From positions 1-42,294 of the forward strand of contig JADFLH010000007.1 of NCBI GenBank assembly GCA_022564515.1: a DNA stretch of 42,294 nucleotides, in the 5' to 3' direction. Shown piece after piece: positions 3,839 through 9,084 of this stretch (position 1 is its first letter; each line of letters starts with the position of its first letter). The DNA is from Nitrososphaerota archaeon (GTDB taxonomy: Archaea > Thermoproteota > Nitrososphaeria > Nitrososphaerales > Nitrosopumilaceae). The notes below the pieces were generated by a model, which had not been told where the DNA came from, ran no database searches, and saw only the letters and a program-made list of their open reading frames with translations. The position numbers and the translations under genes are program-made.

Positions 3839-4000
3839 ATGTCAGTTGAAATCATTTGTGGCAAGTGCGGTGAACAGATCACTAACATGAAAATGTTAAA
3901 GTCTTTAAAAGTTGTAATGAATCCTTACAAAAACAAATGTCCATCATGTGGGCACCCATTATTAACATCTGAGTTTTCATTAGATGTTCAAGAGAACTAA
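3839..4000 (+). CDS. Mini zinc-ribbon protein, 53 residues
   Basis: Small protein beginning MSVEIICGKCGEQITNMKML, with a second knuckle CPSCGHPLL; the CxxC pairs at each end form one four-Cys zinc site. An AT-rich stretch with a TATA-like run precedes it at about 3803-3825. It stands alone between the DUF35 gene and the NrdD-like regulator. Function is unknown. The clean zinc ribbon and full-length frame without internal stops support it as a real gene. Confidence 0.7.
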   Translation: MSVEIICGKCGEQITNMKMLKSLKVVMNPYKNKCPSCGHPLLTSEFSLDVQEN

Positions 4001-4055: not shown

Positions 4056-6164
4056 ATGAGTATGGAACTGGAAGAGGAAGTAGCGGAGCTTCCAAGGAAT
4101 AGTCTTTTACAATCATCATCAAAGCGGGTAAGGATGATTTTTTCTGTTATGGCAAGCCCAAACAGAATTGAAATTTTAAAAATTTTGAATTCAAAGGGAC
4201 CTCTAACTTATTCAGAATTAAAATCCCTTGCTGGATTTAAGTCAAAAAAAGAAAGTGGAAAATTTGCATACCATTTGAGAAAATTACTAAGACAATCTCT
4301 AGTCGCTCTTAATAAAGCTGAAAGGCGTTATACCATTACAAATCTCGGGAAACTAGTCCTTAGTTTGGCTAGACAAATTGAAGAACGATCAATTATTGAA
4401 AGCGGAAAAATGTATGTCAGAACTTCACATGAATCAATTGAGGAATTTAGTTCACATAAGATCATTCAATCTCTTGTACGTGAGGGAAATCTTCCTTTGG
4501 AACTTGCTCAAAAAATAACTGAAGAAGTTGAAAATAGGATTTATAAATATCAAACAACTTACCTCACTGGTTCTCTTATACGCGAAATGACAAACTCAGT
4601 TCTTTTAGAACACGGTCATGAAGAATACCGAAACAAACTGGCAAGACTAGGTTTGCCTGTCTTTGACGTTCAGGAGATGCTAGCAAATGTGACTAATGTT
4701 GACAACGGGGCTGGGGGCATGCTACTTAAAACTGGCCAGAAGGTCTTTGCTGAACATCTGATTACAAACACCCTTCCAAAAGATGTAGCCGATTCTCACC
4801 TTTCAGGCGAACTCCACATCACAAACCCAGGAACCTGGTCATTGGTGCCTGACACCATTTTTGTTAACGTTAAAGAATTGATTGATGATGGAATCGACCT
4901 TGGTGGAAAATATCTTGAGACATCTAGAATTCCATCAATAAAAGATCTGGATGATCTTACCTCTTCACTTTCAGCGATCGTTTCATTACTTTTAAAAGAA
5001 GCATCTCAAGAAGTTGTAATTAATGGACTTGTACCATTGTTCACAAAACACACAAATAATATTTCAGAATTAGAACACAAACTTACAAATGCATTTGCAA
5101 GTATATCTATAACTTCCAACTACCATAAAACAACACCACAAACTTCATTTAGACTTCAATTAGGTTCTGACACAAAAATAATTAACACAATTCTTTCAGC
5201 TTACAAAAACTACGTGAGAATTACACCCATTCCAAATATTGGTTTAATTATTGATTATGAAAAAAGTAAATTAACCAATGTATCAAAAACACTTGCAGAA
5301 ATTATTTCCCTTGGCGGAAAAATTTTCTTTGCGAAGGGATCAGTATCAAGTAAAGGAATCTCTAATCATACTAACAAGAATTCTAGTTTACTTGCAATAA
5401 AATTACAATCCATTTCAATTAATCTGCCGCGTCTTGCATTTGAATCAAATAAAGACGAAACTTACTTTAGGGCAAGATTAGCTCTATTAATGAAACCGGC
5501 ACTTTCTTCTATGGCGTTAAGAGCGAAAGACATTTCTGATCTGACTAGACGTGGTCTTAATCCAATTCTTGCAAAAAACACTCAATATATGCAAAGTAAT
5601 TCGATCTCACTTGTCCTTAATCTAGTTGGTTTACGAGAAGCAATCTTTAGCATTCTTGGTTATCAAGACAATAAAGAGGGGCGACAAATTTTACACGGGG
5701 TTATTGAAACAGCTGTAGATATAGCAACAAAGAAAGGAAAAGAACTCGAAGTAGATGTCAGAATATGTATGACCCAAAGTGATGGAACTTCAAGATTTGC
5801 TTTCCTAGACGGAGAAAAATATGGCAAAAACTCACTCATAAATGTCTTAGAAAATGATTCCTATTCTGAGGGAATAATCCTAACGGGATCTGAAGTTGCT
5901 AAATTGACAAACAAGAGCGAAAAGATCTCTGAATGCAACAAAATTGCTAATATACTAAATGGAGGTCTCCTTGTACACCTTCAACTAGATAACGAATCCA
6001 AGATTGACGATATAAAAAATATAATAGAAAAGACAGCCTCACTTACATCTTCATTCAAGGCTGTAAAGGAAATATCAATTTGTGGTGAGTGTGGCTACAA
6101 AGATGAAAAACTATCAGACAAGTGTATAAAATGCAAATCACCATACATGATACGAAATTCGTAA
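4056..6164 (+). CDS. Winged-helix / ATP-cone / inactive NrdD-like fusion protein, putative regulator of ribonucleotide reductase
   Basis: 702 residues in four parts. Residues 25-105 form an ArsR-like winged helix (ASPNRIEILKIL...KSGKFAYHLRKL is the style). Residues about 119-205 form an ATP-cone (VRTSHESIEEF...ITEEVENRIYKY...LLEHGHEEY). Residues about 220-670 follow class III ribonucleotide reductase (SGELHITNP near 250, INLPRLAFES near 453). The end is a zinc ribbon, C676-C679-C690-C693. The protein has no Cys before about residue 570, so both thiyl-site cysteines of NrdD are missing, and it ends nine residues after the zinc site without the glycyl-radical motif. It therefore cannot be a working reductase. 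It lies directly upstream of nrdJ, so a nucleotide-sensing transcription factor is the best inference. Confidence 0.8.
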   Translation: MSMELEEEVAELPRNSLLQSSSKRVRMIFSVMASPNRIEILKILNSKGPLTYSELKSLAGFKSKKESGKFAYHLRKLLRQSLVALNKAERRYTITNLGKLVLSLARQIEERSIIESGKMYVRTSHESIEEFSSHKIIQSLVREGNLPLELAQKITEEVENRIYKYQTTYLTGSLIREMTNSVLLEHGHEEYRNKLARLGLPVFDVQEMLANVTNVDNGAGGMLLKTGQKVFAEHLITNTLPKDVADSHLSGELHITNPGTWSLVPDTIFVNVKELIDDGIDLGGKYLETSRIPSIKDLDDLTSSLSAIVSLLLKEASQEVVINGLVPLFTKHTNNISELEHKLTNAFASISITSNYHKTTPQTSFRLQLGSDTKIINTILSAYKNYVRITPIPNIGLIIDYEKSKLTNVSKTLAEIISLGGKIFFAKGSVSSKGISNHTNKNSSLLAIKLQSISINLPRLAFESNKDETYFRARLALLMKPALSSMALRAKDISDLTRRGLNPILAKNTQYMQSNSISLVLNLVGLREAIFSILGYQDNKEGRQILHGVIETAVDIATKKGKELEVDVRICMTQSDGTSRFAFLDGEKYGKNSLINVLENDSYSEGIILTGSEVAKLTNKSEKISECNKIANILNGGLLVHLQLDNESKIDDIKNIIEKTASLTSSFKAVKEISICGECGYKDEKLSDKCIKCKSPYMIRNS

Positions 6165-6315: not shown

Positions 6316-6334
6316 TTTTATGAATTTCATAAAA
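6316..6334. promoter_or_regulatory. Perfect 19-bp interrupted palindrome upstream of nrdJ, candidate operator
   Basis: TTTTATGAA, one central T, then TTCATAAAA: two 9-base arms that are exact reverse complements. It lies in the 271-bp gap between the NrdD-like regulator and nrdJ, about 75 bp upstream of a TATA-like element (AATTTATAAT, 6391-6400). A second, shorter palindrome, TGATCTGGATCA, sits at 6362-6373. The symmetry suits a dimeric winged-helix protein. An RNA hairpin at the 3' end of the upstream transcript is the alternative. Confidence 0.5.
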
Positions 6335-6435
6335 ACTGTTTAAAATAAGTTAAGCTAAACCTGATCTGGATCAAATTTTATTAGTTGATAAATTTATAAT
6401 CATTTGAATTCTACCTCATGAGGGGGAGATTATAA

Positions 6436-9084
6436 TTGGATAATTCACAAATAGAGAGTTCTATCGTCGAAATACGCAAACGAAACGGATCGGTTGTGAA
6501 ATTTAATAAAGATAAAATCTCAAATGCTATATATGCAGCATTTACTGCCTCATCCAAAGCCGATCGTAGTATAACCGATAAACTAACTGACGATGTTGCA
6601 AAAAAGCTAGTTGAGCATGGATTTTCTGCCTCAAGGTCTCCAAGCGTAGAGGATATTCAAGATTTAGTAGAATCTATTTTGATTGAGAAAGGACATAGTG
6701 ATATTGCAAAGGCTTACATTTTGTACAGACATGAACACCGGAAATTAAGAGATGAAAAGATAAGAATCCTAAATGCGAAAACTCTAGATCCTGTTGCCAA
6801 AAAATTTGATATTAATAGTCTTAGAGTCCTTGCATCCAGATACCTATTTCGTAACAACAAAAGCGAGATCAACGAAAGTCCAAGTCAACTGTTTGAGCGA
6901 GTTGCAATTCTTGTTGGAATTGGTGATCTGTTTTATGATAATGAGATCTTTTCAAAAGACGGTAATATTAAACAAAACATTGAAGAAGCAAAAGATTATC
7001 TTGATAAACTTGATAACTTTAATTACAAATTCAAAATTAGTGAATACTATCTAAACAAATGGCACTTTCGAGCTCTAATCAACCATTATATTTTATTGGC
7101 AGAAGAAGGACAGATGAAAGTTGGTTTTAAAGAACTGTTGATAATGATGGCAGCCAACAAATTTGAAAACTATGGAGAGAAAATTTCAGAATATTATACT
7201 ATGATGACCTCACAAAATTTTCTACCAAATTCACCAACAATGATGAATGCAGGTGGACGTCTTGGCCAACTTTCTGCATGCTTTGTTTTAGATATGCAAG
7301 ATGATATGGAACAAATTATGAAATCAACATCTCAAGCAGCACTTATCTTCAAATCTGGTGGTGGAGTTGGAATCAACTATTCTAACCTGCGCCCAGAAGG
7401 AGATATTGTAGCCTCAACATCAGGAGTAGCATCAGGACCTGTATCCTTCATGAATATCATCAATACAGTAACTGAGGTGGTAAAGCAAGGAGGTAAGAGA
7501 AGAGGTGCAAATATGGGCATAATTGACGCATGGCACCCAGATATTGAAAAATTCATTACACAAAAAACAGAACCAGGCATTTTAGAAAATTTCAATATAA
7601 GTGTAGGAATTTGGGAAGACTTCTGGGATGCACTTGTTAACACAGAAGAGGGGAAGTTCATGCTACGTAGTCCAAGAGACAATTCACCAATTCGTGAAAT
7701 AAACGCACACCAACTCATTGACCTAATTGCACTTTCTGCTTGGAAGAGTGCCGAACCAGGATTGATCTTCTTTGATCAAATTAACAAATACAATGTATTT
7801 GCAAAAAGTAGAGGTGGACCAATAAGAGCTACAAATCCATGTGGTGAACAAAGTCTTTATCCATACGAATCATGCAATTTAGGTTCTATCAACTTGGCAA
7901 ATCTTGTAAAGAGAAAAGCAGATGGAGAATACGAATTTGATTGGCAAGGATATGAAGAAATCATAAGAAAGTCAACTAGATTCTTAGATAATATAATTAA
8001 TGTCAATCTCTATCCGGTCCAAGAGATTGATATTGCATCAAAAGATTCCAGAAGAATTGGTTTAGGTGTAATGGGAGTAGCGGATCTACTATACAAGCTT
8101 AGAATTCCATACAACTCTAAAGAAGGATATGAATTTCAATGCAAACTCGCTGAAGCCTTAACATATTATTCCATGGAAGAAAGTGTAGCGCTTGCAAAGT
8201 CAAGAGGCCAATTCCCACTTTGTACTAAAACAGAATATCCAGAAGGAAAAATTCCAGTATCTGGATACTATGAGAAATCAAAAGAACAACATTTCTTTGA
8301 TTGGGATGCTCTGATTGAGAAGATAAAAATTCACGGAATAAGAAATGTCCTGACAACCACAGTTGCACCAACTGGTACATTATCCATGATAGCTAACTGT
8401 TCTAATGGAATGGAACCAACATTTGCTTTGGTATTTGAAAAAAGAGTAACTGTTGGAAGATTTTTCTATACAAACAAAATCTTCGAACAAGTTTTAAAAG
8501 ACAATGGATTGTATTCTGATGAATTAATAACAAAAATTGCCGACAATTATGGTTCTGTGAAAGAAATTCCAGAAATTCCAGAATGGATGCAACACGTCTT
8601 TGTTACTGCAATGGACATCCACTGGACAGACCACCTAATGGCACAGGCCGTTTGGCAAGAATGGATTGGTAATGCTATTGCAAAGACAATCAATATGCCC
8701 TATGATGTTACAGTAGATGATGTAAAAGCATCTTATTTGCTAGCACATGAAATGGGTCTAAAAGGAATAACCGTATATCGTGATAGTTCAAGACACAAAC
8801 AGGTACTACATATGACAAGTAAAAAAGCTAAAAAAACCTTCCAAGTAACACCAAGTAAATTTATTACCGATTTTGTTTCCAACAAAATTACAAATCTGTA
8901 CACAAAAACTCAAGTTGATCGTGCACTGAAATTCAGAGAACCTGAAGAAACTCCAGTTGAAACCCATGTTAAGGAGGAAGTAAGTGAAGAAACACTTTGT
9001 CCATCATGTAAAAACAACCTTGTCTTCGTTGAGGGATGCAGTCTCTGCATTGAGTGTGGATACACCGGTTGCACATCTGCATAA
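6436..9084 (+). CDS. nrdJ: Adenosylcobalamin-dependent (class II) ribonucleoside-diphosphate reductase
   Basis: 882 residues; makes deoxyribonucleotides from ribonucleotides using a B12-generated thiyl radical. An ATP-cone occupies about residues 10-100 (allosteric activity site). Active-site residues are Cys282 in LSACFVLDM, the NPCGEQ motif with Asn467, Cys469 and Glu471, and redox Cys480 in SCNLGSINL. The C-terminal tail carries CPSC, then GCSLCIECGYTGC, typical for the cysteine tail that re-reduces the active site. The start is TTG 6436, preceded by a purine-rich run (AGGGGGAGAT, 6421-6430) that can act as ribosome binding site. A TATA-like box lies at 6391-6400. Its expression is probably controlled through the palindromes just upstream. 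Confidence 0.95.
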   Translation: MDNSQIESSIVEIRKRNGSVVKFNKDKISNAIYAAFTASSKADRSITDKLTDDVAKKLVEHGFSASRSPSVEDIQDLVESILIEKGHSDIAKAYILYRHEHRKLRDEKIRILNAKTLDPVAKKFDINSLRVLASRYLFRNNKSEINESPSQLFERVAILVGIGDLFYDNEIFSKDGNIKQNIEEAKDYLDKLDNFNYKFKISEYYLNKWHFRALINHYILLAEEGQMKVGFKELLIMMAANKFENYGEKISEYYTMMTSQNFLPNSPTMMNAGGRLGQLSACFVLDMQDDMEQIMKSTSQAALIFKSGGGVGINYSNLRPEGDIVASTSGVASGPVSFMNIINTVTEVVKQGGKRRGANMGIIDAWHPDIEKFITQKTEPGILENFNISVGIWEDFWDALVNTEEGKFMLRSPRDNSPIREINAHQLIDLIALSAWKSAEPGLIFFDQINKYNVFAKSRGGPIRATNPCGEQSLYPYESCNLGSINLANLVKRKADGEYEFDWQGYEEIIRKSTRFLDNIINVNLYPVQEIDIASKDSRRIGLGVMGVADLLYKLRIPYNSKEGYEFQCKLAEALTYYSMEESVALAKSRGQFPLCTKTEYPEGKIPVSGYYEKSKEQHFFDWDALIEKIKIHGIRNVLTTTVAPTGTLSMIANCSNGMEPTFALVFEKRVTVGRFFYTNKIFEQVLKDNGLYSDELITKIADNYGSVKEIPEIPEWMQHVFVTAMDIHWTDHLMAQAVWQEWIGNAIAKTINMPYDVTVDDVKASYLLAHEMGLKGITVYRDSSRHKQVLHMTSKKAKKTFQVTPSKFITDFVSNKITNLYTKTQVDRALKFREPEETPVETHVKEEVSEETLCPSCKNNLVFVEGCSLCIECGYTGCTSA

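Follow-up and report, generated by a model that had tools for sequence, protein, structure and literature searches.

NrdR serves as the model for nucleotide-dependent control of ribonucleotide reductase (RNR) genes (PMC9110341, PMC12051234). This repressor of about 150 aa (TIGR00244) combines a Zn ribbon with an ATP-cone and has no reductase body; it is rare in archaea (PMC9110341). Two further types of protein are of relevance here, namely the class III reductases NrdD, such as those of T. maritima, S. thermophilus, P. copri and T4, which are composed of an ATP-cone, a barrel body and a Cys4 zinc ribbon, and the archaeal winged-helix regulators of the ArsR/HTH_20 type (PF24038 DUF7347, PF12840). 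For archaeal lineages without NrdR, the agent of RNR gene control is, to our knowledge, largely unknown, and we found no description of an NrdD-derived regulator among open-licence papers.

The window, i.e., the whole stretch of 42,294 nucleotides that was analysed, codes for a protein of about 700 aa that shares features with each of these (Table 1). As with NrdR, an ATP-cone is joined to a DNA-binding domain, the gene lies directly upstream of an RNR gene preceded by conserved palindromic DNA, and transcription of that RNR gene is probably under nucleotide control. Unlike in NrdR, the domain order is winged helix, ATP-cone, NrdD and Zn ribbon, and TIGR00244 gives no match. The window protein has the ATP-cone, barrel body and Cys4 zinc ribbon of class III NrdD, but it lacks the catalytic Cys and the glycyl Gly-Tyr, has an added N-terminal winged helix and stands apart in the tree. 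Its N-terminal domain resembles the ArsR/HTH_20-type regulators, from which it differs by its fusion to an ATP-cone and an NrdD body and by having no apparent metal site, there being no Cys before residue 571. We regard it as a member of the NrdD fold that is neither an active NrdD enzyme nor an NrdR, and whose probable function resembles that of NrdR. The family is carried by ammonia-oxidising archaea, several of which are among the most abundant archaea of the ocean, and by their relatives.

Table 1. Features of the locus, with positions in the window
Feature	Position	Strand	Basis
53-aa double-CxxC Zn-ribbon ORF, directly 5′ of the regulator gene	3839..4000	+	
Gene of the HTH-ATP-cone-dead-NrdD protein, 702 aa, ATG start	4056..6164	+	ORF, Pfam, alignment
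Winged helix-turn-helix (HTH) domain, residues 28-102	4137..4361	+	Pfam DUF7347/HTH_20
ATP-cone, nucleotide-binding regulatory domain, residues 119-191	4410..4628	+	Pfam
NrdD-like body, about residues 206-670	4671..6065	+	Pfam, structure model, fold and profile matches
Codon of T267, which aligns with the invariant Cys of active NrdDs after the SGELHIHDL strand	4854..4856	+	Alignment
Codons of G434-I435, which align with the invariant Cys-Cys of active NrdDs (catalytic Cys region)	5355..5360	+	Alignment
Cys4 zinc ribbon C676, C679, C690, C693, kept from NrdD	6081..6134	+	Alignment
Perfect palindrome TATGAATTTCATA, candidate operator 5′ of nrdJ	6319..6331		Comparison of relatives, genome scan
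Putative TATA-like box TTTATAAT of nrdJ	6393..6400	+	By eye, from TTATAACC/TTTATACC conserved in relatives
nrdJ, class II (B12) ribonucleotide reductase	6436..9084	+	Pfam, only Ribonuc_red_lgC match in the genome

Domain architecture and catalytic residues

The succession of winged helix, ATP-cone, NrdD-like body and terminal zinc ribbon proposed in the initial annotation was borne out by Pfam and by alignment. NRDD (PF13597) matched the window protein with an E value of 3.1e-26 and 92.6 bits (cut-off, 26.2 bits), the best stretch being residues 447 to 695, and the motifs INLPRLAFES (455-464) and SGELHITNP (250-258) aligned with NLPRIAYKA and SGELHIHDL of active NrdDs. In a Pfam scan, HTH, ATP-cone and NRDD were common to all 24 diverse homologues, with the winged HTH recognised by PF24038 in 24/24 and by PF12840 in 18/24, arguing that the architecture is not a chance assembly.

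The AlphaFold model of the body had a pLDDT of 85 to 95 across most of residues 300 to 670. As HTH and cone were poorly modelled (pLDDT 30 to 50, with a near-invariant alignment), the body alone was used for fold comparison. The structural comparison with class III NrdD that had been suggested from the sequence showed that the first 35 Foldseek ranks of the predicted body against the PDB were all class III reductases. A profile of the family also had class III NrdD as its top match in the PDB by sequence, whereas phmmer with the single window protein gave no match there.

The window protein and 40 relatives of the same architecture were aligned column by column with 19 active archaeal NrdDs. 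The Cys that follows the SGELHIHDL strand, the paired Cys and the glycyl Gly-Tyr were present in 19/19 active enzymes and absent from the window protein. Among the relatives, none of the 40 had Cys at the first position of the pair, and a few Bathyarchaeia-like ones had it at the second; Gly-Tyr was found in register after the zinc site in 0/40, and in one sequence (L064), which lacked the Cys, a GY was shifted by one position. The first Cys of the window protein is residue 571, close to the position of about 570 given initially (580 when numbered in a frame longer by nine residues), followed by 627 and by the CxxC...CxxC of the zinc site. Beyond that site, where a glycyl-radical motif had been noted as missing, active NrdD continues with RVTGYYQ; the window protein ends in CKSPYMIRNS, without a glycyl loop. 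Judged by these columns, the window protein is catalytically dead as a class III reductase, in keeping with the initial annotation. That it nevertheless functions as an unusual reductase, obtaining its radical chemistry elsewhere, is highly improbable: the NrdD fold, the zinc Cys4 and the NLPR and HLSG motifs are retained, but the catalytic Cys and Gly-Tyr are gone and reductase activity is already available from nrdJ.

In a quick tree, with SH-aLRT support only and some long branches, a fully supported branch split the active NrdDs from all regulators. The NrdG activase gave no match over the cut-off in the genome of the window, using a model that also missed control genomes bearing nrdD. An NrdD-like ORF of another genome (G230, L166, 2478-4742) has no HTH, keeps its Cys residues and ends before the zinc site, and is either truncated or another pseudoenzyme.

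The family is present in 77/77 genomes listed for the family and order of the window's archaeon. Between close relatives, the HTH was the most constrained part, with a median dN of 0.005 against a dS of 0.70; median-based dN/dS was about 0.007 for the HTH, 0.04 for the ATP-cone, the second most constrained part, and 0.1 for the body. The protein is under purifying selection, which is strongest in the helix-turn-helix. A functionless, decaying remnant of an old nrdD might look like the gene of G305, which is broken into two ORFs (L049), or that of G108, which lacks the zinc ribbon (L050), both of them still adjoined by nrdJ; given the occurrence in every listed genome and a dN well below dS throughout, this explanation can practically be dismissed. 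In-frame stops reported in relatives were merely terminal stops read through in those inspected. The 53-aa Zn-ribbon ORF is possibly co-transcribed with the regulator gene, and it seems to be kept in relatives, with a common motif at a similar distance.

Linkage to nrdJ and a candidate operator

A survey of gene order with nrdJ had been set beforehand as a test of the regulatory interpretation. The gene immediately 3′ of the regulator gene, and transcribed in the same direction, was nrdJ in 77/77 named Nitrosopumilaceae loci that were informative and in 19/19 informative ones from diverse Nitrososphaeria, including one genome (G332) with a quite different nrdJ (33% identity) at the same place. 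In the genome of the window, which is 95% complete, no class I/II catalytic subunit other than nrdJ was found. No second NrdD-like gene scored over the cut-off in this or 13 other Nitrososphaeria genomes. NrdR had no match in the window's genome and exceeded the cut-off in 0/15 Nitrososphaeria, with one sub-threshold match (G393).

The palindrome TATGAANTTCATA occurred 5′ of nrdJ in perfect form in 39/78 relatives and with at most one mismatch in 51/78, counts that are not independent as the loci are related; shuffled controls gave 0/3,900 and 15/3,900, respectively. Its ten outer positions were 98 to 100% conserved and its centre base varied freely, among sequences within one mismatch that had been selected for that match. 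Its distances from nrdJ group around 107 and 117 nt, a difference of roughly one helical turn. In the 1.5-Mb genome, no perfect copy exists besides the one at nrdJ, and other copies across 61 genomes of the family were near the background given by the reversed pattern. As some 60 bp separate the palindrome from the TATA-like box downstream of it, activation or looping is no less plausible than repression. It is missing in some Nitrosopumilaceae in which the HTH has barely changed, and we therefore treat its link to the window protein as a hypothesis. The palindromes CGATCATCG and TCAATATTATTGA were discarded as operators, neither being found within the nrdJ upstream region of the window. In four loci (L010, L013, L017 and L028), that region measures 300 to 570 nt, compared with about 205 nt in most relatives, and seems to contain two promoter-like segments.

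Proposed regulation of RNR genes

We consider it likely that the window protein is a transcription regulator of RNR genes that evolved from the catalytic subunit of a class III reductase. The domain architecture, the NrdD fold, the lost catalytic residues, the constraint on the HTH, the adjacency to nrdJ or nrdD, the distribution of NrdR and the palindrome all point to this reading, which the gene context strongly favours. The spacing between the palindrome and the TATA-like box, which would be unusual if the archaeal protein acted by simple repression, and the lack of the palindrome in some Nitrosopumilaceae count against it.

According to the proposed mechanism, the winged helix would bind DNA near the nrdJ promoter, and ATP/dATP or other nucleotides would be bound by the ATP-cone and perhaps also by the remodelled NrdD body. 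Nucleotide binding would alter the oligomer or the DNA affinity of the protein and thereby tie transcription of the sole RNR to the nucleotide pools. The protein would take the part that NrdR plays in bacteria, relying on another type of DNA-binding domain and using an entire inactive reductase for sensing. DNA binding, the ligand, the direction of control and TATGAANTTCATA as the site of the window protein are what we infer here. By analogy with NrdR (PMC9110341, PMC12051234), nucleotides bound at the ATP-cone would change both the oligomeric state and DNA binding. The cone retains some, not all, of the positions that bind nucleotides in E. coli NrdA; at K9 and R10, which contact phosphate in that protein, the window protein has T and S, a further point against the reading.

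Each of the 77 genomes sampled from the order carries one such candidate protein, encoded beside the only RNR gene, and a candidate DNA site is named as well. If the reading is true, we have here a clear example of how an entire metabolic enzyme came to regulate its functional counterpart.

Relatives associated with nrdD, NrdR and pyrBI

The regulator family reaches 50 genomes that we take to be Bathyarchaeia-like, where it coexists with active RNRs encoded elsewhere in the genome. There, going beyond the initial annotation, we found that in several families the regulator gene comes first in an operon with an active nrdD and that NrdR holds the equivalent place in other genomes. An active nrdD comes next after the regulator in eight genomes (G059, G073, G087, G124, G271, G299, G118 and G307) of three families, f28, f38 and f57, with a glutaredoxin-like gene in between in f28 and f57; in f19 (G019), another nrdJ (42% identity) follows. 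The claim that the protein is an RNR regulator is supported by its adjacency to nrdJ. The claim that it controls nrdJ is too narrow for the family, whose members are likewise found with nrdD, other nrdJ types and pyrBI.

This variety also bears on the idea of a protein-level partner, in which the dead NrdD body would associate with NrdJ or NrdD in a mixed complex that modulates the activity of the enzyme, with the HTH serving for dimerisation or being secondary. A reductase fold in common and a gene beside that of the enzyme speak for such a complex. The family, however, pairs with class II NrdJ types that are 33 to 42% alike and with class III NrdD, which is awkward for one conserved contact surface, and conservation is by far highest in the HTH, making a role of this kind rather improbable.

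Findings in the Bathyarchaeia-like genomes also count against the RNR-regulator reading. An RNR gene was not seen adjoining the regulator in 41/50 Bathyarchaeia-like genomes, and NrdR scored over the cut-off in 19/50, there located directly upstream of nrdD by coordinates. In one genome (G299), NrdR adjoins one of the two nrdDs and the HTH-ATP-cone-dead-NrdD protein adjoins the other, and the sampled NrdR-linked and regulator-linked nrdDs fell into separate clades of the tree.

The most common neighbour of the regulator in the Bathyarchaeia-like loci read was pyrB, which follows in convergent orientation in 13 of 20 loci (L055-L074), with pyrI beyond in nine. A nucleotide-responsive regulator with a wider regulon, comprising pyrimidine synthesis and replication with RNR as one target, would account for this arrangement and for the coexistence with NrdR. 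It overlaps with the RNR-regulator reading, and we hold it to be conceivable but on the unlikely side: three loci have the order regulator-nrdH-nrdD-pyrB-pyrI, which suggests that regulator-nrdH-nrdD-pyrBI is ancestral and that pyrBI may be a relic neighbour, and the single perfect copy of the candidate operator in the window's genome is at nrdJ. In a more far-reaching reading, which we hold to be less likely than not, the disarmed RNR would represent a widespread family of archaeal transcription factors that use the ATP-cone, and perhaps the allosteric and substrate pockets, as a multi-nucleotide sensor, replacing NrdR in lineages where it is lacking and being also coupled to pyrimidine synthesis (pyrBI).

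No perfect palindrome was common to the upstream regions of the Bathyarchaeia-like nrdD operons. An element resembling TTATACA..ATTTTATAC recurs 5′ of nrdH/nrdD in six loci of three families (L060, L063, L066, L074, L155 and L167), and the promoter region of L155 carries the perfect palindrome TTATACAAAAAAATTGTATAA. Some relatives have RNR open frames of 1,000 to 1,600 aa, of nrdJ in L054, G043, G326 and G115 and of nrdD in G006, G008 and G027; these overlong frames perhaps contain inteins.
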